From Rhizophagus irregularis (lineage: Eukaryota > Glomeromycota > Glomeromycetes > Glomerales > Glomeraceae), in the NCBI RefSeq assembly GCF_026210795.1, contig NC_089446.1, positions 3,191,001 to 3,255,000 of the forward strand: a stretch of 64,000 nt of DNA, given 5' to 3'. Positions 2,924-47,749 of this stretch are shown piece by piece. The notes beneath the pieces are model-generated. The model saw only the letters and a program-made list of their open reading frames with translations. It had not been told where the DNA came from and searched no databases. A program made the translations under genes and the position numbers. Each line of letters opens with the position of its first letter. Position 1 is the stretch's first letter.

Positions 2924-3925
2924 TAAAGCTCCGCATGAGCCAGCTTTGAGCCGAGCCCAACAGTCTGGCTCGCCCACCAAAAAAAAAAATTCTGGCCTCA
3001 GCCCTGCAATTAAGAAACTGAAATGCCCATAAAAATTTTGGCTCAAGCTAAAGTGAGCTGAGCCAAGCCATGATTTTCATGGCTCGAGCCAAGTCAGGCT
3101 CGAGCTTTATCTTCAGAAAAACGTTTCGCAACGTTTTTTATTGTTAATTAAAAAACGGTACGAAACGTTTTTTCTAAAATAATATAGTGAAAAAAAGCGT
3201 TTTTTGCAACGTTTTTTACTGAAAATTAAAAAAACGTTGTGAAATATTTTTTTCCAATATAATATAGTGAAAAAAACGTTTTCGCAACGTTTTTTTATTA
3301 AAGAACTTAAAAAAACGTTGCGAAACGTTTTTTCTAATATAATATAGTAAAAAAAACGTTTTCACAACGTTTTTTATTAAAGAACTTAAAAAAATGTTGC
3401 GAAACATTTTTTTCTAATATTAGATAGTGAAAAAAATGTTTTCACAACGTTTTTTTACTAAGAATTTAAAAAAACGTTGCAAAATGTTTTTTTCTAAAAT
3501 AATATAGTGAAAAAAACGTTTTCACAACGTTTTTTACTAAAGAATTAAAAAAAACGTTGCGAAATATTTTTTTCCAATATAATATAGTGAAAAAAATGTT
3601 TTCGCAACGTTTTTTTATTAAAGAATTAAAAAAAATGTTGCGAAACGTTTTTTTAATATAATATTATACAAAAAACGTTTTCGCAATGTTTTTTGTATGA
3701 TAACTCAAGCCAGCTCGAGCTTTTTAAGCCGAGCCTATTACTGGCTTGAGCTTTTTGAGCCGAGCCTATTACTGGCTTGAGCTTTTTGAATCGAGCCTAT
3801 CACCGGCTCAAGCTCATTTCAAACTGGCTCGCGAGCCACTAAGCCAATTTAATCGTGGCTCAGCTCGACTCAGATTGAAAAGCTCGAGCCAGCTCGTGAG
3901 CCGGTTCAGCTCATGCGGAGCTTTA
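2924..3925. mobile_element. hAT-like non-autonomous element with 8-bp TSD
   Basis: Perfect 17-bp terminal inverted repeats: TAAAGCTCCGCATGAGC at the left and its complement ending at 3925. They are flanked by an 8-bp direct repeat GTTTTCCC (2916-2923 and 3926-3933). An 8-bp duplication and YARNG-type ends fit the hAT superfamily. Subterminal GC-rich GAGCC/GCTCGAGCC motifs lie on both sides and an 80-bp palindromic satellite fills the centre. No transposase reading frame is present, so it must depend on an enzyme made elsewhere. The intact ends suggest a fairly recent insertion. Confidence 0.88.
3181..3660. repeat. 80-bp tandem satellite of alternating hairpins
   Basis: The motif AATATAGTG/A recurs at 3181, 3261, 3341, 3421, 3501 and 3581, an exact 80-bp period. 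Each unit carries AAACGTTTTCGCAACGTTTT and its near complement AAAACGTTGCGAAACGTTTT, so each unit can fold into two alternative stems (with the adjacent or with the preceding half). Partial units extend on both sides (3120-3690). Confidence 0.9.
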
Positions 3926-11969: not shown

Positions 11970-12520
11970 TTCTAGTTACGACAGTAAGGATCAGAATGCT
12001 ATTGGTTCAAATTTGAATGAGAATTCTTTGAAAATTAGCTTTATTCCGACTAACAACATGGAGTGATAATGTCATATTACGACATTAAGGATCGGAATGC
12101 TACTGGTTCAAGTTTTTCAATGAGAATTCTTTGGAAGACAGCTTTATTCTGAATAACAACATGGGATATTACGACAGCAGTAAGGATCGGAATGCTACTG
12201 GTTCAAGTTTTTGAATAAGAATTCTTTGAAAACAGCTTTATTCTGAATAACAACATGGGTGATAATGTCATATTACGACAGTAAGGATCAGAATTCTAAT
12301 GATTCGGGTTTTTAAATGAGAATTCTTTGAAAAATAGCTATGGGTCATAATGTTATATTACGACAATAAGGATCGCAAGTTTTTGAATGAGAATTCTTTG
12401 AAAAACAGCTTTATTATAAATAACAAACATGTCATATTACGACAGTAAGGATCAGAATGCTAAGAATTCAAGTTTTGAATGGGAGAGCTCATTGAAAAAC
12501 AGCTTTATTCTGAATAACTC
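11970..12520. repeat. Minisatellite, unit about 80-100 bp, six copies
   Basis: Units begin CGACAGTAAGGATCAGAATG at about 11979, 12078, 12172, 12266, 12361 and 12440. Each continues with GGTTCAAGTTTTTGAATGAG, AATTCTTTGAAAA and CAGCTTTATTCTGAATAACA. Copies differ by substitutions and by deletion of blocks (for example the 12361 unit lacks the GCTACTGGTTC section). No open frame spans the array. Confidence 0.85.
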
Positions 12521-22245: not shown

Positions 22246-23496
22246 TAAGGTTGCCTGCCGAAACTCATTTGGCCTGATGCCGAAAGCCGAAACTCTTTTA
22301 TTAGTGCTGAAACTGCCAAAATGCCAAAATGCCAAAACCTGCCAAAATGCTGAAACTGGCATAGTTTTGGTATAGCTAATACTAACATCTTGATATAATT
22401 TCGGCATAATTTCGGCATTCTATAATAATTTTTTTTCATTAATTTAATTCCAATATATATATACGTAATTAAATATTTTATTATATTATTTATTTTATTG
22501 TAATAAACCAATTTTTATAAACAATGGTATACTATAAGAAACACACTCGTTTTCAAGCAATTAAATAAAACTTTCCATATAAAAAAGTCTGGTAAAAAAA
22601 ACAAAAAAAATAGAAGGAACGTTATAACGTTTCTTGATATATTAAAAAAAAAGATTCCCTTTTCCTTCCATTGAAACTTACATGAGTATCCCTGATTCGG
22701 GTTCTTCCAAGTTCTAGGAGTCGTAACCTAAAAAAACAGAAAAAAGAAACGTTAGTACGCTTTAACATAATTAAACACGTACCCCATATACTTACCGAAG
22801 ATCGGTTCTTCCAAGTTCATCAGATCAGGTATCACAAAAAAAACAGAAAAAAGAAACATTAGTACGTTTCTTTAACACAATTAAACACAGTACCCCTATA
22901 TACTTACCAAAGACCGGTTCTTCCAAGTTACATTAGGAGGTCCGGTAACCTAAAAAAACAAAAAAACAAAAAAACGTTAGTACGTTTCTTTAACACAATT
23001 TAAACGCAGTACCCATTATCTTACCAAAGTCCGGGTTCTTTCAAGTTCCTAGGAGTCTGGTATCCTAAAAAACAAGAAAATAGAAACGTTTGTACGTTTC
23101 TTTAATACAATTCAAGAAAAAATTTAAAAAAAATTAACGTTAGTAAAATATACTAACGTTAAAATAAAGGGTGAGCGGGCGATCATAAAATTCAACGTTA
23201 AATTATCTTTTTAACGTTAAAAAAGTTTTTTTTTAAAAAAAAATAACGATAACGGTTTAAAAAACCGTTTTAGATTATCAATGATCAGTTAAAAAACTGA
23301 TCGGAGCTTAACTGAATTAAGAAATGCCGAAACTATATGTATATCATATGATATACTGCGCCGAAATGCCGAAACAGTTTTGGCAGTTTTGGCAGTTTTG
23401 GCATTTTGGCATTTTCAGTTGCTTGCCGAAACCTAGTTTCGGCAGTTTCGGCAGTTTCGGCATGCCAAAACTCCCTAGTTTCAGCAAGCAACCTTA
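22246..23496. mobile_element. hAT-like element A carrying a micro-exon array
   Basis: The ends are TAAGGTTGCCTGCCGAAAC and its near complement GTTTCAGCAAGCAACCTTA, flanked by the 8-bp duplication AACAGTGT (22238-22245 and 23497-23504). Both subterminal zones are built of short CCGAAACTG/CCAAAATG repeats. The centre holds the array at 22612-23100. No transposase frame. A related element end occurs at 27848, and a hAT transposase relic lies between the two. Confidence 0.88.
22612..23100 (-). repeat. Array A: tandem micro-exon/intron units (about 114 bp, 4-5 copies)
   Basis: On the minus strand the putative exons are 23064-23025, 22949-22908, 22832-22796 and 22727-22682 (40, 42, 37 and 46 nt). 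Each is followed by GTAAG donors at 23024, 22907, 22795 and 22681. Acceptors read TTTTTTAG before three of them; the third is mutated to TTTGTG. Between donor and acceptor, introns of about 68-75 nt carry a hairpin such as GAAACGTACTAACGTT whose loop and stem contain TACTAAC about 26 nt before AG. The exon core is TACCRGACTCC then AACTTGGAAGAACC. Whether it is spliced is inference. Confidence 0.75.
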
Positions 23497-26086: not shown

Positions 26087-26480
26087 CTTTATAGAGAATA
26101 AAAAAAATTTTTTTTTGTCAAAGAATGACGCGTTGTGAAAAACGGATTTTTGGAATGATGACAATTTTAATCTAATTAATACTGCAGAATTTTCTTAACC
26201 GAAAGAGATGATTAAAATACACAAATTTATCGTTGAAATTACACAGAACATCTCATGATAGGCAACCCTCATTATCTTTATACTTATAAGTTAAAATATC
26301 ACTCTCGTGATACTGTATATAAAATAAGATTATAAAGTTTATAGACAAATAGATTGATTGTAATTTGTAACATCCCAAAAAAAATAGTATATAGTATTTA
26401 AAAGTTTTTAAAATTTTCGTAAAAAAAAAAATATTTATGCAAATATTTAAAAAAGAAAATACATAAAACCTTTTTTTATA
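26087..26480. other. Spacer between hAT relic and element B
   Basis: AT-rich. GGCAACCCTCATTA at 26262-26277 may be a worn terminal repeat of the hAT element, paired with TATGGGGTGCC near 23509, but no target duplication is visible. Confidence 0.35.
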
Positions 26481-26599
26481 AAAACCCCTTAGTCAAATGA
26501 ATTAACGAAAGCCTCGAAAGGTAGAACACGATATACAGTATTGTGACACAAGTGTCAATTTTATCTCCAAGAAGTCGTCACTAAAAAAAAAAATAAGGA

Positions 26600-27560
26600 A
26601 AGAACGTTAGCAAACGTTCTGTAACCAAAGAAAAGTAAACCCCACACTTACATTTCACGTTCAAGTACCAATTTCGTCTCCAAGAAGGTTATTATTACTA
26701 CAAAAAAATATATAGAACGTTAGTAAACGTTCTATAACCAAAGATAATTAAAAAATATCCTCCATTTCATGATTACCCGTGAAGAAAGCTCTTCTTAAAA
26801 TATATTCATTATTTATTTTAGAATAAAATCTAGCCGTTGAAGAGGTAGATAAACCACACAAATCTACTATCCAAGATTGTCAAATTCTTTGTTTTAAAGC
26901 ATCTCGTTCTTTCCTAATCTCACTGACTTTTTTAATTTCTTTCATATTGTTATCAATAGAGTTCTGTAAGTTTTTTATTTGTTGCTTCAAATCATTACTG
27001 GCAACATCGCCCCTAGCCATTTTATCATTTAAATTTTTCATTTCTAAGTTTAGTTTTCAACCTTAATATTTCTTAATATCCTATATCTTATATCTAAAAA
27101 ATATTTAAAATGACCAGACATCATAGGAAGAAATCTTTTCTAAGTCAAACACAATATGATCTCCTTAGCTAGCTTGTTTCTTTCTTCCTCAATCTCAGTT
27201 CGCTGATTAATAGCATTATTGGATATTTCTCTTTGATATCTTTCACTATCTTTTAGTTTCTCAATTGATTTGCCTGCTTTCTCTAATCTCACCTTTCGCC
27301 TCCAAGTATCCAGATATTTGTTCCTAAAGTACCAACAAAAAAAAGACTTAAACTTTCTTTTTCAGGTGTCATTTCGTCTTAAGTTTGGTTTCGTCCAATA
27401 CCAAGAAGCCGGTATCCCTACAAACGAAAAAAAAAAGAAAAAAGAAACGTTAAAAACGTTTCTTAAAACATTAAATTTTTTTAAAAACCTTCCTTTTACC
27501 TGTCCGGCTGTTCGTAAATTCCGGTTTCGTCAATTCCAAGAAAGCTGGTATCCCTATAAT
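26600..27560 (-). repeat. Array B: interspersed micro-exon/intron units
   Basis: On the minus strand: exon from about 27555 to GACAG|GTAAAAGG near 27500, hairpin GAAACGTTTTTAACGTTTC, TTTGTAG, next exon GGATACCGGCTTCTTGG. Further on, hairpin GAACGTTTACTAACGTTC and TTTTTTTGTAG precede an exon with CTTCTTGGAGACGAAATTGG and the donor GTAAGT at 26651. Then hairpin GAACGTTTGCTAACGTTC and TTTTTTAG at about 26582. The exon cores resemble those of array A (TACCRG..TCTTGG). Confidence 0.6.
26762..27300 (-). pseudogene. Coiled-coil gene fragment inside element B
   Basis: Two minus-strand segments encode heptad-like helices: KSIEKLKDSERYQREISNNA then EIEEERNKLAKEII (27280-27160), and MARGDVASNDLKQQIKNLQN then KEIKKVSEIRKERDALKQRI (27020-26890), followed by a stop and SWIVDLCGLSTSSTARFYSK. 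They look like exons of one coiled-coil protein separated by an intron ending in ATTTTTTAG (about 27100). Breaks and missing ends make a working gene unlikely. It may be captured host sequence. Function unknown. Confidence 0.45.
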
Positions 27561-27848
27561 ATTTCATTTTTCGTTAGAAAATATTTCTTAAGTTATAATA
27601 AATTTAAAAAAGAATACCCGCTTTATACCTTAATGTCCATGTTGTCCATGTCCAAGTTTATAAAACTGAAATATTTTTTTTTTTACATATTGATTATCGA
27701 TGATCAGTATGACTGACCAATCCTAACCGAATAGAGTAATGCCGAAACTATATGTACAGTATATCATATGATATACTATGTCGACACGCCGAAACGGTTT
27801 CGACAATTTCGACATGTCGAAACTCTTTAGTTTCGGCAGGCAACTTTA

Positions 27849-29327
27849 CGCGCAACATGATAAACTTACAACTGATAATTTAATAGAGTATCAAGATTTA
27901 GATAAGAAACTAAACAATTTTGTTATGCTCTTTTAACAATTGGAGTTCCGTGGACAAACATGGTGGCAGAAATTGGAACTAATTCCATAAGGATGATAAA
28001 TATTGATAGGCGAACATTACAGAAATTTTGTTCCAATAAAACAAAAAGACCTGATGATGAAGTCTTGCTTTAATTAAGGCCTGGGTAGAGAGGAGGAGGA
28101 AAGAAATAATAATCAGTAATTTAAATAATTATTACGTTATTGAAGAAAATTATAGTTTAATGAACAGTGATTTCATATAATTATGTTTTAACAATGTATT
28201 AATAAACTAAATATGGCCGTGTCCATATACCGCGTAAATAGACACGTGTGATTCGACTACGCCATTTTATCTTATGTTCGCTTATTTTTATCATGTGAAA
28301 TCGATCGGCCTGAAATGCATGCTTTTATTTTTAGATCTTGATGTGACATCGGATCAATTTGCGTAATGCCAATTCAATGATTCATAATATGTGTATTATG
28401 CCAGAACTTTCTGAAAAAAAAGTCGACAGATTAATTATTCAATTGATCTATTCCCACGATCTAACCCATAGATTTACAAAAAAATCTGACGGCATTTTGG
28501 CCCTGATCTCGATTCTATGAAATGTAAAGGGGGTACTATAGCACCATCCGTTCTACATAATAAAGAAAAATTCCATTTTTAGATCTTGTGCGATATTGAC
28601 AATAAACAGTGTATTTCTCAGTAACAACTTCATTTTTATTACTTCATTAGTATTAATTGGTGTCATATCAATTTGTCATTTCATCAGATTAACTTCGGAA
28701 CGGTTAAACTGTATTTGTCAACAATTAGTGGGAAACCCCCTACGAAGCAATAGGCGTAATTTTTGGCCAGAACCACGTTCATGTGATTTTTCGACAAGAA
28801 AACATTTTATACAAAATCGATTTTATACTTCATACATACGAAAAAATAAATTCAATAATGTTGGAACATTACTCCTCGAGAAACACGAAATTCACAAGGG
28901 ATGTGTCCTCCAGGCATCTAATGTATTATTACTTCATTTATCGAGTGTATCTAAACATATACAAAATCACATGATGATGTAGTTAAATCCTTATTTCTTT
29001 ATTAATATAAAATAGCTATTACACAAATCTGATGCGCTCTTTTACAGTAATAATATTTTTTATCTTAAGCTTGAAAGATGTGTATCAACAACTCCATCAA
29101 AGGTGATGTTTTTGATATTAAAAAAATTCAAAAATTGAGCAATTTTTGTAGGAAGTCCATTTATATTATACTTAAAGTAGGGAAGGAGGGAGGGAAGGGG
29201 ATTGATTTCGAGAAACTACACAATATTTTCTTATCTAATTCTGTAATTTTTATATCAAAAATTAGTCAAATTAATCACGAATTATTTACAAATACCATTA
29301 TTCTTGATACGTACCAAATTATAAATT
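27849..29327. other. Intergenic; no convincing gene
   Basis: Contains short open frames at 28596-28982 and 29078-29338 without recognisable motifs. The segment 27850-28090 is slightly richer in coding-like codons (KLNNFVMLF, RPDDEVLL) but is full of stops and may be an old gene relic. Confidence 0.4.
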
Positions 29328-34545: not shown

Positions 34546-34853
34546 ATCATATACAATACCAAAATAACTGGCAAAATGTTTCTCTATATAAAAAGATTAA
34601 AATCTGAAGACTTAAATTATTATAACAAATTATTTTATTATTTTTCAGATTTGAAAAGATTAAAATTATTTTTTTAAATAAAGTTAATAGTTTATTTTTT
34701 TAAGGAATTGATTTTATAGTTAAGTAGTAATTTAACTGAAAGATGATATTTAAGTTATCTGATTTTTTGTTGTTGTAATCTACTAAATAAATTTAAAGAA
34801 AATAAATAATTTTATTTAAATATTAAAAATTTAATATCTTTATGATTTTAATA

Positions 34854-36436
34854 CAGTCACCCCTCTCTACAGCGAACCTCGATATAGCGAATAACATGAT
34901 ATAACAGATCATACAGTGTGGTACCGATTTTAAATATGAAAAAAACCTTGATATAACGAAGTTTACTATTTATTTACCATATAACGTAGTACGAAGTAAA
35001 GTGTGTGAATTTCTTATATAAAAATGCCTCTCGATATAACGGATTTTTTTTATAACGAATTTTTTTCAGTTATAACGAAGAATTTCTTTATAATTAAATG
35101 TAATTATTAATAAATATTGATGCATTATGACATTAAATATCACCCCTGTGTTTTATATTTAAATTATGGATCAGAATTGTATCAGGATCGTATCAGGATT
35201 AATAATTCTGGCTATTTTATTTAATATTTAGGCAGAATTACATTAATTTACATTAATTCGGTTGTATTAGGATTCGATGTGAATTGTTATTAATTTATAT
35301 TTATCACGGGGGTAAGGACACTCCTAGTTAAATTAATATATCATTAATAATTTATTTATTATATAGTCAGTTATTGTTAAACAGCATTCCTACAAAAAAA
35401 AGGAATTATAATAAACATTTTTATATAGAACACTTCAGGAAGCATTCCCTATAATAAAAAAATAAAAAAAGAACATTAGTAAATGTTCTTAAACGAAATT
35501 AAAAGAAAAAATTGAGTTGTCCCACTTACTTCGTCTGCAAGCGTCCATTTCGAAGTCCCTACAATAAAAAAAATAAAAAAGAACATTAGTAAATGTTCTT
35601 AAACGAAATTAAAAGAAAAAATTGAGTTGTCCCACTTACTTGTCTCAAGCGTCCATTTCGAAGTCCCTACAATAAAAAAAATAAAAAAGAACATTAGTAA
35701 ATGTTCTTAAACGAAATTAAAAGAAAAAATTGAGTTGTCCCACTTACTTCTTGTCTCAAGCGTCCATTTCGAAGTCCCTACAATAAAAAAAATAAAAAAG
35801 AACATTAGTAAATGTTTTTAAACGAAATTAATAAAAAAATCGAGTTCCCCACTTCTTGTTTCAAGCGTCCATTTCGAAGTCCCTACAATAAAAAAAATAA
35901 AAAAGAACATTAGTAAATGTTCTTAAACGAAATTAATAAAAAAAATCGAGTTCCCCACTTACTTCTTGTCTCAAGCGTCCATTTCGAAGTCCAGGAAGTT
36001 CCCTATAATAAAAAAATAAAAAAAGAACATTAGTAAATGTTCTTAGTAAATAAAAAAAATTGAGTTCCCCACTTACTTCTCGTCTCAGGCGTCCATTTCG
36101 AAGTCCAGGAAGTTTCCTACAATAAAAAAAATAAAAAAAGAACATTAGTAAATGTTTTTAAACGAAATTAATATAAAAAACCCCCCAGTTCCCACTTACT
36201 TCTCATTCTAGGCATCTATTTTGAAGTTTAGAAAGTACCCCTATAAAAAAAAGATTAAAAAAAATGTTAAATTATCGGTAATCAGATCAACAAGTCACAT
36301 GATCTGTATAACCGATATTCCTATACCGAAGAATTCATTATACAATACCGAATAATTCGTTATAGTGTTAACGAAGTTGCTTATAACGAAGCCCTGATCA
36401 GCTGGAACCTAGGGTTCGTTATATCGAGAGGGACTG
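34854..36436. mobile_element. pogo/Tigger-like non-autonomous element carrying a micro-exon array
   Basis: Left end CAGTCACCCCTCTCTACAGC and right-end complement CAGTCCCTCTCGATATAACG, flanked by TA on both sides (34852-34853 and 36437-36438). Subterminal TATAACGAAG/CGTTATA motifs are frequent on both sides. No transposase frame. The central 850 bp is array C. The element is 1,583 bp, long for a MITE because of the array. Confidence 0.85.
35440..36250 (-). repeat. Array C: seven micro-exon/intron units (about 110 bp)
   Basis: Seven copies of the palindrome GAACATTAGTAAATGTTC at 35471, 35581, 35689, 35799, 35904, 36025 and 36140. On the minus strand each unit reads: ATTGTAG or ATTATAG acceptor, exon beginning GGACTTCGAAATGGACGCTTG (27-30 nt, or 40-41 nt with an extra CTTCCTGG block), GTAAGTGGG donor, then an intron of about 81 nt with the hairpin AGAACATTTACTAATGTTCT holding TTTACTAAT about 25 nt before the AG. 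One unit (about 35851) has lost the GTAAGT. The exon reads LPGLRNGRLRQE in one frame. Signals are nearly identical in all copies while flanking bases vary. Confidence 0.85.
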
Positions 36437-36438
36437 TA

Positions 36439-37404: not shown

Positions 37405-39628
37405 ATGGAAGAAGATAGCACTTATCCAACAAGTCGTTTTATTAAACTTTATGATAAAAAAAGAACTTTCTATTACAAAATCATAAAAGAGGGAACATAT
37501 CCTCTTACCAATCAACTTCATTACACCAGAAATCCAAAACATCCAATTCCTCACAATTATATTGTTGAAACTCAATATGGAAAAGCAAACCATATTGTAA
37601 AATGTTCAATTAATTATGTGGAAGGAAAACCTTTATTTAAAGTCAACTTTGGAGAAAATTTTGCGAAAGAAGTACATTCTTTAGAATCTTCAACAGAAGC
37701 CGCCTGTAAATACTATCAGATATATTTGATGAATTTTTTTATTATCAAATGTTAAATATGAATGCTAAAACAAATAATTAGGAGTTCAAAGAAGCTACTA
37801 ATAAAGGAAAAATATCTGGCCTTCTACTTTTTGGTCTCAAGTTACTTAGTGTTGAACGAGTGCATAAGTCAGTGACATTAAAAATTCAACCTTTTAGTGA
37901 ACTTAGCAACACCACAAGACGCCGAAAGATGCTATGCTTATCACAATGTATTTTGGATGCTGTTGAAGAAGAAAAGGAAAACATGTTCCATCCAACTGAC
38001 CAAATAAAACTTAAGCAAGTAAAATTTGAATCTTATAATGATTTATATGATATTAATTTTGAGCAGTTAGATATAATGGGAGAAATAAAAAGAATTGAGG
38101 CAGTAGTTAAATCTTTAGACAGAAATCATATTTCAAGAGAGGCATATCGATCTTTAGCGCGAATTGAACATAGTATACCACGTGAAGAGGCAGTATCAAC
38201 TACACGACAAAGAATCAATATAGAAATGAGAAAAAATATTCCATTAACTCTTGTTGATTTATTACAACCAACTATTTTTGAGCCAATTACAGAAGAGCCT
38301 CATATTACTGATAATGCAGTTATTACAAATATGTTAGAATCAATTGGTAAAGGAGGACAACGGCGTATTACAAATATTCTCAATTACATTGTACCGTTAT
38401 ATATAGAACGAGGAATCTTAACTCCTGAGACATTAACTTTATACATTAGAATTTCAGGTGATGGACGCAATGTTGGTCGCAAGGTTAAACATGTTATGGT
38501 AACAATGACATTATTAAATGACCTTAATGGTTTACAAAAACCAGATAACAATTATACATTAGTCTTATATCCAGGAGCTGAATCATATGAATCTCTTAAA
38601 AATGCCCTAACTCCTTTAATTTCTGACTTGTCTATATTAAAAGAAAAAGGATTTGATCAAATAGGAGGTAATCACTGGCCGGTTGAACTATTTTTTAGTT
38701 CAGACTGGAAATTTCTATCAATATGTCTAGGAATAAAAGCCGCTAACGCTCAACATTTCTGTCCATGGTGTGATTGTAGTAAAGATGAAATTAACACTAC
38801 AACAAAAACAATAAATAAGTCAATGGATGAGATTAAAGATAATTATAATCAAATTAATGGTCATATTAAAAAACCACTATTTTATATGATACCTTTACAA
38901 AACTGGGTATGTGACGAATTACATGTTTTTTTACGAATAACAGACAGATTATGGGAATTGATGCTTTCTGATCTTCGTCGTGAAACAACAAATGAAGAAA
39001 TTTGGAAAGAAAAAATATTATTAGAAATGCAGAGACTTAAGATAACATTTCAATTTTGGCGTGAAAAAAATAGTAACAATCTATCATATACTTCCCTTAT
39101 GGGACCAGACAAGTTAAAAATCCTGAAAGAATTTAATCTTATTGCCATTTTTCAGTCAACAGAAAGAGCTATACAAATCCAAGAATTATGGAATCAATTT
39201 AATGAACTGTATATCTTGATGCAAAACATGCAAACTACAGGTGAAACTTTTCATTATAAGGCTCAAACTTGGCTAAATGCATTTTTAGCTCCTTCTAAAG
39301 GACATCCCAACAGGAGTAATTTTGTTAGAGGAATGTATCGAATTCAAGATGTAACTCCCTATATTCATGTATTGGTTAATCATGTAGCAGAGTTTATTGA
39401 AATTCATCATGAGTTTGGATTAACTGCTTTTTTATGTTCAGCGGTGGAAAAGAAAAACCACATGCAAGTGTGCCTTTATTTTCGAAACACATTAAAAGAT
39501 GGGGAACACGAGAATTCACGAAAATCTGCAATTGTAGAAATGTTAGAACATGAAATCAGCAATTATATTTTGCGTTAAACGAAGTACCAAATTTTTTTGA
39601 AAAACCAAAAAAATACAGAATAATTTAG
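37405..39628 (+). pseudogene. DDE-type transposase-like gene, two exons, two late lesions
   Basis: Exon 1 37405-37719 (MEEDSTYPTSRFIKLYDKKR... STEAACKYYQ) and exon 2 from 37782 (EFKEATNKGKISGLLLFGL...) are open for 105 and 598 codons. Exon 2 has RISGDGRNVGR, TLVLYPGAESYESL, VELFFSSDWKFLSICLGIKA, FCPWCDCS, WVCDELHVFLRITDRLW and FLCSAVEKKNHMQV. Asp in SGDG, Asp in SSDWKF and Glu in VEKKNH are candidates for an RNase H-like catalytic triad, with a CPWCDC zinc motif between. I know similar proteins as a repeated family in Rhizophagus-type fungi and some invertebrates, without a secure name. The 62-bp intron has a proper TAATTAG acceptor, but its donor reads ATATAT after CAG, one G-to-A change from GTATAT. 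Near the 3' end a one-base shift at about 39555 causes an early stop at 39578; the other frame continues LYFALNEVPNFFEKPKKYR to 39628. Very recently inactivated. Confidence 0.75.
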
Positions 39629-44420: not shown

Positions 44421-45020
44421 AAAACCCTAAATTATTATTCAAAATTTATTTTAATATATATTGTTAAGTAAATTTATATTTAACATTAAAAATTTTTTAG
44501 GATTTTAAAAAATTTTTATATAAATAAAATCCCAAAAATATTTTTATTAATAACACATGTCAAATGACCAAAAACAGGCAAAAAAAATAGCTAGAATTGC
44601 ATAAACTAATCGCAAATTTATATAAACTATTTACAAATAGTATAGATTAATTCACAAATAGCCAAAAACAGCTAAGAATAGCCAAGAATAGCCAAGAATA
44701 GCCACTGCTTTTCGCGCCATTTTTTTGCTAATTTTTAGCATTTTGACCTGTGTAACTTTAAACAAAAGTTTTTTTTATTATAATCATTATTAATAAGTAT
44801 TAGTTATTTCAAAAATTATAAAAATAAGTAAAATTTTTATTTTTATTTTTAATTTTTTTTATAATTAACTAGTATTCACCTGTTAACTACGTTAACAGTT
44901 AGAGGTAAATCTGCTTACAGTCTGTATAACAATTCCATATATTTATAGTAATATGCACTTTTCAATCTTACTACTTAAAAATTCTTAAAAAAAAAAAATT
45001 ATTTTTTATTTATTTCTTTG
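44421..45020. other. Intergenic with short AGCCAAGAAT repeats
   Basis: AGAATAGCCA is repeated three times at about 44676-44705, and a palindrome CTGTTAACTACGTTAACAG lies at about 44880-44898. No gene. Confidence 0.5.
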
Positions 45021-45896
45021 AGTTTTACTAAAGATCACCAGTGGTAATTTTCACTAATAGTGAATTTTTCACTATACATAAATTTTATTGGTTAATTTTT
45101 TGCATTGTGACACAATTTTTATTTTTTAGTGACTTTGAACTATTTTTGTTATGCTCTTTTATTTTTTTGCCTAAGAACACAAAGATCAATAAAAAATGCG
45201 AAAATTGAGGATAAGATCAAAGGTAATCACATCCCAAAGATAAAGAACACAAAGATCAATAAAAATGCAAAAATCAAAGATCAGATCAGAAATGTTAGTA
45301 GTGTTCTCAAATCAAAAAAAAAAAAACCAAAAAAGAAATAAAAAAACAAATGCAAATACTCACTTCAAAGCCAAAATCTGGAGTCCAAGTCCGTCCCTAA
45401 AGAAAAAGAAAGAAAAGGAATATTAGTAGTGTTCTAAATCAAAAAAGAAAAAGAAACAACAAACAACACAAATACTCACTCCAAAACTGAAATCTTGAGT
45501 CCAGTAATATCCAAGTTCATTTCTAAAGAAAAAGAAAAGAAAAGGAACGTTAGTAGCATTCTTAAATCAAAAAAAAACAAAAACAAACAAAAAACAATTG
45601 CAAATACTCACCCAAAGCCAAAATCTGGTGTCTGGTAATATCCAAGTTTATTTCTAAAGAAAAAGAAAGGAAAAGGAATGTTAGTAGCGTTCCCAAATCA
45701 AAAAAAAAATAAAAAATAAAAAATAACGCGAATACTTACTTTAAACTGAAAGCTGAAGTCCAAGTTCGTCTCTAAAGAAAAAAAAACCAAAGTTGCGCCA
45801 TACAAAATCATGGCGCGGCGCAAGCTTTTTAAATTTTAAATTTATATAATTTATATATATGGTGTCGATCACCACTGATGATCTTTCATAGTAAAA
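45021..45896 (-). mobile_element. Element D with GTTTTACTA ends and a micro-exon array
   Basis: The left end GTTTTACTAAAGATCACCAG and the right-end complement GTTTTACTATGAAAGATCAT (then CAGTGGTGATC) form inverted repeats. I could not find a clear target duplication. Most of the interior is array D. Near the right end a hairpin TTGCGCCAT ... ATGGCGCGGCGCAA lies at about 45793-45824. Confidence 0.55.
45280..45775 (-). repeat. Array D: four micro-exon/intron units (about 128 bp)
   Basis: On the minus strand, exons lie at about 45771-45740, 45652-45612, 45523-45482 and 45397-45365. Each is preceded by TTCTTTAG and followed by GTAAGTATTCG or GTGAGTATT. Introns carry GGAACGCTACTAACATTCC, AGAATGCTACTAACGTTCC, AGAACACTACTAATATTCC or GAGAACACTACTAACATT, i.e. 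CTACTAAC/T inside a partly self-complementary stretch. The exon core is GAACTTGGAYATTAC...GGACTCCAGATTTTGG. Confidence 0.7.
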
Positions 45897-45899
45897 CCC

Positions 45900-46740
45900 T
45901 TAGGACGTTTCAGTACTTTCTTACAGGATGACACTATGGGATTCTTTTTTTTTTGTAGGTCAGTTTGGTAGGTTCGTTCGGTGTTCTTTTCGCTTTGAGA
46001 TTCTTTCTTTTTTTGTAGGTCGATGTTTAGCATTCTTCTATAGAGTTTTTCTTTTTTGTAGGTCAGTTCAGTATTCTCTTTCTTGTAGGATGACGCTCCG
46101 GAATTCTCTTTCTTGTAGGACGACGCCTTCAGGATTTTTCTCTTTTTTTGTAGGTCAGTATTCGGTATTCTTCTATTGGGTTCGTAGGTTAAGTCATTTT
46201 CTCTTTCTTTTAATTTTCCTTTCGTTAGAGGATTCTAATTTCTTTCATTTTTTTTTCTTTAGATCAGTTCTTTTTTCAGCATCAGATTCTGAAAGTAGGG
46301 TCTATAAGCCCTCTTTCTTTCGTTTTCCTTTAGTTAGAGGCTTGCTAATCTCTTTCATTTTTTTTCTTTAGGGATTGGTTATCCTTTTTAGCATCAAATT
46401 CCAGGTAGGTCTCTAAAGCCCTCTTTCTTTCGTTTTCCTTTAGTTAGAGGTTGCTAACCTCTTTCATTTTTTTTTCTTTAGATCGGTCCTCTTTTCAGCA
46501 TTGGATTCCGGGTAGGTCTATAAAGCCTTCTTTCTTTCATTTTCCTTTAGTTAGAGGTTGCTAACCTTTTTCATTTTTTTTTTCTTTAGATCGGTTCTCT
46601 TTTCAGCATCGGATTCTGGGTAGGTCTCTAAAGCCCTCTTTCTTTCGTTTCCTTTAGTTAGAGGTTGCTAACCTCTTTTATTTTTTTTTTCTTTAGGTCA
46701 GTCTTCTTTTTAACGCGAGATTCCAGGTAAATCTTTCTTT
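45900..46740 (+). repeat. Array E: micro-exon/intron units on the plus strand
   Basis: Five regular units: acceptors TTTCTTTAG end at 46262, 46371, 46481, 46589 and 46696 (period 107-110). Exons start with ATCGGTTCTCTTTTCAGCAT, and donors GTAGGTC or GTAAATC are at about 46294, 46404, 46511, 46619 and 46726. The branch hairpin AGAGGTTGCTAACCTCT is perfect at 46446, 46553 and 46660 (nearly so at 46336), with TGCTAAC in the stem-loop. Upstream, 45950-46160 has a denser series of TTTTTTGTAG|GTCAG or GATGACGC units spaced 30-60 bp. Confidence 0.75.
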
Positions 46741-47150
46741 GTTTTCATTTGTTCCGTTTTGTTTTGTTTCGTTTCATTTTTTGTATATTCTAACCTTTAC
46801 CCTTTCCATTTAGGTCCTAGTTCTTTCGGCTCTTCGACCCTAAGGTGCATGTTTTTTCATTTTTTATTTCATTTGTTTGTGTTGTTTGTTTTGTTTCATT
46901 TTTCATTCATTCTTACTTTCTTTCTCCTTTACTCTCTGCTCATGCTCTGTATGCTTGTACTTTATGCTTTTTTGTTTGTTTTGTTTCATTTTTTGTTCAT
47001 TCTAACCTCTACCTCTTCATTTAGGTCTCGGTTCTTTCAGCTCTTCGACCCTAAGGTGCATATTTTTTTGTTTTTTATTTCATTTTGTTTGTGTTGCTTG
47101 TATTGTTTCGTTTTTCATTCATTCTAACTTCTACTCTCTTTCCATTTTGT
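46740..47150 (+). repeat. Array F: two 31-nt micro-exons with 180-nt intron
   Basis: Exons 46814-46844 and 47025-47055 share TTCTTTCRGCTCTTCGACCC then TAAG. Both are preceded by CATTTAG with TTCTAAC 22-27 nt upstream and followed by GTGCAT. A third copy of the upstream part is at 47115-47150, where the acceptor is changed to TTTTG. Confidence 0.65.
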
Positions 47151-47749
47151 TGAAGAAAGGGAAAGGAAAAAAAACAAAAGTAAGAAAAATAAAAAAAATA
47201 AAAAAATTAAATGCATAACATTTTTATTAAGATCGATGCTATTGCGTCATGTGTGTCACGCACTGCAGTTGCACAATTTGTAAATAGTTATTTATGTGGG
47301 TAGTCTAAACATAACGTCCACGTGATTGCAGTGTTTTTTAAATATTAGATAATAGTAAAAATTACTAATTATATAATTTATAAATATATTTATTAAAGGT
47401 TTAAATTTGAATGCACTTGTATTTAAATACACTTTTCTTTTTTGAAAATTTTTATATAATAAAAATATTAATTATTTTATTAGATGATACTAAAGAATTT
47501 CTGATTTTTTTGAATAAATACAGTTTATATCTTATATATTTGCTTATAAATAAATCTTAAAATTTATATATATATATTTTTGATTATAACTAATTTTCAC
47601 CTAGGATGATTTAACCTGATTATTTTATATATTTTTATATAATTTACCCGGTGATATCACCTCATTTAAATTTTATTAGCTAATTAATATGCTGATCATT
47701 TCTTATACTTGTTTATTTTTTTTTTAAATGTACTTAGATAATCTTTTTT

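Follow-up and report, generated by a model that had tools for sequence, protein, structure and literature searches.

Tandem exon-intron units with a hairpin at the branch site in a pogo-like non-autonomous transposon of Rhizophagus irregularis

Why should a transposon without a transposase of its own carry a series of what look like complete introns, and are their splice signals kept or simply inherited? The question is raised by a 64,000-nucleotide stretch of the Rhizophagus irregularis genome (NCBI RefSeq assembly GCF_026210795.1, contig NC_089446.1, positions 3,191,001 to 3,255,000; C18:3191001-3255000 in our numbering), which was analysed as a whole and is referred to as the window; genome-wide searches covered 146.7 Mb in 32 contigs. 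At 35449..36242, on the minus strand, minus-strand reading and Tandem Repeats Finder delimit an array of seven exon-plus-intron units (array C), which sits internally in a larger element at 34852-36438. The units are very probably genuine introns of the U2 type, borne by a passenger transcript that codes for no protein, and they would probably be spliced when transcribed; the feature is real and well supported as anatomy and, in the family of array C elements (family C), as a set of constrained splice signals.

Each unit is about 110 bp long and contains, in this order, an exon, a GTAAGT donor, a spacer, a hairpin that spans TACTAAT, a T-rich tract and AG; Tandem Repeats Finder calls the repeat at 35446-36180, with a period of 108-110, 6.6 copies and a score of 967-979. 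The donor is exactly GTAAGT in six of the seven units (36071..36076, the others starting at 36199, 35962, 35747, 35639 and 35529; minus strand). In the remaining one it is deleted, at approximately 35842..35855 on the same strand, as seen from an alignment gap in locus L009, and the unit reads AAGAAGTGGGG near 35852; donor gaps also occur in L024 and partly in L022 in the family C alignment. The exons of the six units with an intact donor measure 41, 40, 40, 30, 27 and 29 nt from their coordinates, in agreement with the first-pass annotation of the window, which had proposed about seven minus-strand repeats with exon-like cores of 27-41 nt. The seven predicted branch hairpins lie at 35905..35922 and at positions starting at 36157, 36042, 35817, 35706, 35598 and 35488 (minus strand); their palindrome is exactly GAACATTTACTAATGTTC in five units, while the other two start with AAACATT, a one-base difference, and all seven are followed by a T-rich tract and TAG. 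The first acceptor AG, at 36241..36242 (minus strand), is not preceded by TACTAAC in the window copy, and no GTRAG or GTATG donor is found upstream of it inside the element. At the other end of the array, the stretch beyond the last acceptor-like TTTTTTTTGTAG, at 35340..35389 (minus strand), was compared with older copies too; it holds AATAAATAAA and may represent a terminal exon, although no GTAAGT-type donor precedes that last acceptor in the window copy.

A GT donor, a branch motif, a pyrimidine tract and AG, in this order and at an intron length, are the features expected of U2-type introns, and 198 of the 216 units found in 35 close elements are exact for GTAAGT, ACTAAY and AG; the earlier statement that splice signals are kept in nearly all copies is thus upheld. 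In a small and rough host control, 20 exon gaps of chaperonin genes were taken in sense orientation together with 30 nt of flank at either end; GTAAGT was present in two and TACTAAY in none, which suggests that the array introns carry stronger signals than ordinary host introns.

The hairpin had been described beforehand as a perfect one presenting TACTAAT. The palindrome is real and exact in most units of array C, but in the structure predicted by RNAfold only TACT lies in the loop and AAT pairs in the stem; the word "presents" is therefore not quite right, because the expected branch A would be paired. A genome-wide search gave 495 occurrences of one stem class of branch hairpin, RAACGTNNCTAACGTTY, and 2 of its reversed-pattern control, and the genome has at least 43 matching pieces; array C is thus not a product of chance. 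The free-loop pattern RAACGTNNNNNACGTTY is found at 1,242 sites, against 150 for its control; in the 50 sites at the head of the list, every one of them from contig C1, the loop ends in YTA, giving YTAAC on one strand, in 47, and the outer pair matches in 46 (31 A-T and 15 G-C). Stems are less constrained than the linear signals in family C, and pair 72-89 is A.C in 22 of the 216 units; several older copies end in a unit whose hairpin is shifted yet still complementary (AACATTA..TAATGTT, by eye). Viral contigs were also scanned for one hairpin class, and ten of them contained one match each.

The element that contains array C (34852..36438, minus strand, 1,587 bp) has TA at both ends. Its 5′ terminal inverted repeat (TIR), TACAGTCCCTCTCGATATAACGAACC, occupies 36413..36438 and its 3′ TIR, GTTCGCTGTAGAGAGGGGTGACTGTA, 34852..34877, both read on the minus strand from the alignment of loci. 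The ends at 36438 and 34852 are fixed in 38 of the 40 aligned loci, L044 and L048 lacking one end in the stretch fetched, and the earlier suggestion that the units lie inside a transposon is borne out by these pogo-like ends. Elements begin with TACAGTCCCTCTCG and finish with AGAGGGGTGACTGTA, with 12-bp flanks that vary from copy to copy; the right border of L032 is TT instead of TA. The TIR pattern, with up to three mismatches, has 145 sites in the genome and none for the reversed control. Three related elements (L061, L062 and L063) have similar TIRs together with matches to the pogo-type DDE_1 domain; one of them, L063, is 88% identical to the array element over the ends and has no TACTAAY site. 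No stop-to-stop frame of at least 110 aa, as a transposase of its own, is found within 34852-36438. The TIRs, the TA borders and the DDE_1-bearing relatives therefore identify the carrier of array C, by its sequence, as a pogo-like non-autonomous transposon; it resembles other pogo-like (Tc1/mariner) non-autonomous elements in its TIR of the form CAGTC...ATAACGAAC, in its TA ends and in having transposase-bearing relatives in the same genome. We know of no pogo-like non-autonomous element with an intron array. The number of units per element ranges from 2 (L045 and L047) to 14 (L018) and is most often 7; a further copy of the array C element, L067, surfaced later and is outside all counts. In two older array elements, L043 and L044, a AAGGTTGC-type insertion separates the 5′ end from the array.

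Are the splice signals of these copies maintained by selection? The analysis used a close set of 35 elements (216 units) and an older subfamily, about 20% diverged, of 17 units from 5 loci; in the close set, only substitutions were counted, and a substitution was considered private when found in one element and shared when found in two or more. Signal positions display 10 private and 1 shared substitutions, while other positions outside CpG and stems display 34 and 38 (Fisher p=0.008); the difference is also seen against all other positions (38:48, p=0.004) and against the intron spacer alone (15:14, p=0.03). Whether donor, branch and AG are more conserved than the spacer had been proposed beforehand as a check, and this holds for family C. 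Removal of the rearranged L040 leaves 7:0 against 28:36 (p=0.005), and removal of three poor copies, L040, L024 and L023, leaves 6:0 against 29:28 (p=0.03); a composition-matched permutation within family C gives p of about 0.0002 or below. Signal loss in inserted copies therefore runs at an ordinary level, yet such losses are rarely passed on. In the older subfamily, changed cells amount to 2/96 in the donor, 2/134 in the branch and 2/47 in TAG, compared with 123/501 in the exon, 96/574 in the spacer, 24/310 in the T-tract and 19/102 and 7/65 in the stems. At G/C positions only, signals are changed in 3/64 cells against 120/358 for other non-CpG positions (p=3e-7 when cells are counted and 0.013 when positions are). 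Taken together, these patterns show that the splice signals of family C are under constraint, as far as substitutions among copies can reveal it.

At least three further arrays on a similar plan are present in the window, one in a hAT-like element and two placed head to head in a Helitron-like element. The first, array D, belongs to an element at 22246..23496 (minus strand; ends computed from L049) with the TIR TAAGGTTGC; when up to one mismatch is allowed, this TIR has 1,242 occurrences in the genome and none in the control. Judged by eye, L050 and L052 have a clear 8-bp duplication, L051 and L049 an approximate one, and the element is probably hAT-like. A degenerate array, E, occupies 26300..27850 (minus strand, lower border approximate), with one D-type terminal repeat near 27847. 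Helitrons are recognised by a 5′ TC, a 3′ hairpin followed by CTRR and insertion between A and T. These end features are all found in the element at 44869..47349 (minus strand), which starts with TCTAATATTT after a flanking A and closes with a hairpin and CTAG before a flanking T. Its 5′ end was found in C18, C19 and C29 and its 3′ end in C18, C19 and C2; the fetched C22 stretches contain neither. Array F (45280..45790, minus strand) has imperfect hairpins, none with six or more perfect pairs, and faces array G (46180..46760, plus strand), in which signals are changed in 5/163 cells against 80/884 elsewhere (p=0.008, strand-specific). More arrays on a like plan, some of them with weak donors, are found in L082-L087, and L065:200-1500 contains ten TACTAAY sites, mostly 112 bp apart, with the hairpin AAACGTACTAACGTTT, 32-nt exons (by eye) and a pogo-type TIR about 1.9 kb away. 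The exon cores of the array families look alike by eye. As judged from these comparisons, constraint on the signals is demonstrated for C and supported for G, and is not apparent for D or for the L065 array.

The explanation that we tentatively prefer, and to which we would give almost an even chance, is that the arrays are non-coding multi-intron passengers, kept spliceable because this helps the transposon. Array C would then be a tandem series of exon-intron modules for the U2-type spliceosome, and the pogo-like non-autonomous element would carry them as cargo that encodes nothing; on transcription, each GTAAGT would be joined to the next TAG through a TACTAAY branch, and the product would be a short RNA made of 27-41-nt exons. 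The encoded peptide would be irrelevant and spliceability alone would count, spliceable copies leaving the larger progeny. Most likely, this would be because a transcript with many fast and strong introns could pass as host pre-mRNA and escape RNA-based silencing; alternatively, the introns may raise RNA output. The hairpin may tune access to the branch site or hold the 3′ splice region, and the donor-less first acceptor would also permit exon trapping. A broader version, which we consider unlikely, is that unrelated pogo-like, hAT-like and Helitron-like transposons have acquired such "splice shields", independently or by exchange: arrays of non-coding, strong mini-introns with a branch hairpin would give transposon RNA the look of host pre-mRNA and so let it evade RNA-based silencing, with the transposon, rather than the host, as the target of selection.

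Several observations weigh against the preferred explanation. No usual donor lies ahead of the first acceptor, since the leader before the first unit contains GTRAG or GTATG in 0 of 38 elements, other donor forms not having been sought. In 27 of the 216 units, C.A replaces a proper match at stem pair 75-86, and a paired branch A is expected to hinder splicing, according to the part of PMC2275289 considered here. The statistical case also has its weak points: when L040, L024 and L023 are removed and the spacer is the only reference, p rises to 0.053; gaps are outside the private-versus-shared comparison, and they affect at most 3 elements at donor positions and at most 6 at TAG, some of these perhaps alignment ends; A/T positions alone in the older subfamily are not significant by position (p=0.14); and all p-values are only indicative because the units of one array are not independent. 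In the strand-specific comparison, the signals of array F are changed in 18/229 cells against 164/1,403, a trend only (p=0.09), and in array D there is no excess constraint (12/241 against 109/1,486, p=0.22). When older relatives of D, which have weak donors, are added, its signals are, if anything, more variable than the rest (45/334 against 218/2,017, p=0.16), clearly so at G/C positions (27/122 against 97/825, p=0.004); G/C positions within the one L065 element display no difference (7/72 in signals, 44/392 elsewhere). Finally, transcription, splicing and benefit to the transposon are what we infer from the sequence, and the benefit is wholly so.

The main rival is plain satellite growth, in which a captured exon-intron stretch was multiplied by slippage or unequal exchange and its signals were inherited, not selected. 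Proposed already in the first-pass annotation, this origin accounts for the copy number, which varies from 2 to 14, for the private losses of signals in individual copies and for the lack of excess signal constraint in array D and L065, and the missing extra constraint in the hAT-like family is what keeps it first among the rivals; conversely, it does not explain the deficit of shared variants at family C signals, the excess conservation in array G (p=0.008) or a like plan in three transposon types, and as a full explanation we regard it as somewhat unlikely. Another possibility is that the palindrome acts as DNA, as a site for protein binding, methylation or recombination, and that the likeness to introns is secondary: the stems are palindromic in DNA, often with CpG, and one stem class with a free loop is far more frequent than its control. 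Since the loop gives YTAAC on one strand in nearly all of the sites listed first on contig C1, and GTAAGT and TAG, which lie outside the palindrome, are constrained too in family C, this role seems very improbable. An exon trap would use the donor-less first acceptor and a poly(A)-like terminal exon to capture host transcripts from sense intronic insertions, so that the array would become the 3′ end of a host gene. The leaders without GTRAG or GTATG (38/38) and the presence of AATAAATAAA beyond the last acceptor-like site are what such a trap would display; yet it would harm the host with no clear gain for the element, its poly(A) signal is only presumed and, in the window copy, no donor of the GTAAGT type stands ahead of the last acceptor; we regard the trap as improbable.

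Two other proposals made from the first reading of the window fare worse. The idea of a self-splicing-out cargo is that of an introner-like element, removed from host mRNA by splicing and thereby harmless where it inserts; a transposon with strong splice signals would suit it, and transposon-derived introns are known, as reported in the part of PMC9860276 considered. Introners have splice sites at or near the element ends, and here the same 38 leaders are without the usual donor; the element is therefore not built to splice itself out, since exons, leader and a 3′ part of about 600 bp would stay in the mRNA, and self-removal of the introner type, scarcely credible to us, was set aside. The other proposal, a machine for making a repeated peptide, amounts to a tandem-repeat protein gene inside the transposon. 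When L018 is spliced in silico, its 13 measured exons are open over 136/136 codons, 20 of the other 36 copies likewise keep an open frame over all exons measured, and the commonest exon is 30 nt long (78/147); the open frame of L018 is, however, to be expected, because a 30-nt exon that is open remains so in each of its tandem repetitions. Only 86 of 147 exons have a length that is a multiple of 3, these 147 being the exons that fit a strict acceptor-and-GTAAGT pattern in 37 elements and thus fewer than all units. Exons of 40 nt in older family C copies and of 32 nt in L065 indicate that the frame is not kept across repeated exons, and changed exon cells, by position mod 3, number 22, 56 and 45, and neither of the open frames has more changes at its third positions. 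Peptide coding was set aside on exon lengths and on the lack of synonymous bias in the open frames, and is most improbable. A spliced-leader or other small-RNA gene was set aside as well: Rfam, at gathering thresholds, has no match in the whole window, and the T-run of the C spacer has no counterpart in array D (by eye).

The nearest known kinds are introners and symmetrical stwintrons, as far as the parts of PMC9860276 and PMC8469720 considered here describe them. According to the same parts, introners and fungal introner-like elements are near-identical repeated introns tied to DNA transposons, like the units of array C, and the fungal ones often have inverted-repeat symmetry. Unlike the arrays, an introner lands in an exon and turns into an intron, its splice sites lying at or close to the element ends, whereas intron and exon are here a tandem cargo with no usual leader donor. 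Micro-exon genes also combine short repeated modules and introns. So do the SP7-type tandem-repeat effectors of R. irregularis itself, in the account given by part of PMC11333574; both code for proteins, while the arrays keep no frame between units or families. As for silencing, R. irregularis has small RNAs directed to transposable elements and DNA methylation (PMC8647823, in part), stalled spliceosomes or poor splicing flag transposons for RNAi in Cryptococcus (PMC6232588, in part), and introns are barriers to nuclear RNAi in Caenorhabditis elegans (PMC5554785, in part). Recognition of transposons through the spliceosome, as in the latter two organisms, would explain why strong introns could be of value to a transposon, and its link to the arrays is our suggestion. 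Comparable arrays are not described in the parts of PMC6232588 and PMC5554785 covered, the strings "intron" and "splic" do not occur in the main text of two R. irregularis transposon papers (PMC8647823 and PMC11075540), and no description of such intron arrays was recognised in the open-access literature searched.

What lets a genome distinguish transposon RNA from its own is not settled, and introns are among the suspected marks. Transposons that encode no protein but carry rows of near-ideal introns, some copies broken and others intact in the same genome, offer a natural test: if copies with intact signals had fewer small RNAs or less methylation, introns would be a mark of self. If the preferred explanation is true, the arrays could also supply new genes with exon-intron units that are ready for use, and they would constitute a large natural set of branch sites within hairpins.

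Elsewhere in the window, Pfam returned no match for four of six open reading frames (ORFs) searched. An ORF at 13791-14396 matches the SWIRM domain and is likely part of a host gene, and a 598-aa open frame at 37782-39575 has no Pfam match at E 0.001. Two more tandem repeats are present, one of 80/160 bp at 3117-3694, whose consensus contains AACGTT palindromes, and one of about 101 bp at 11981-12339, which contains GTAAGG.
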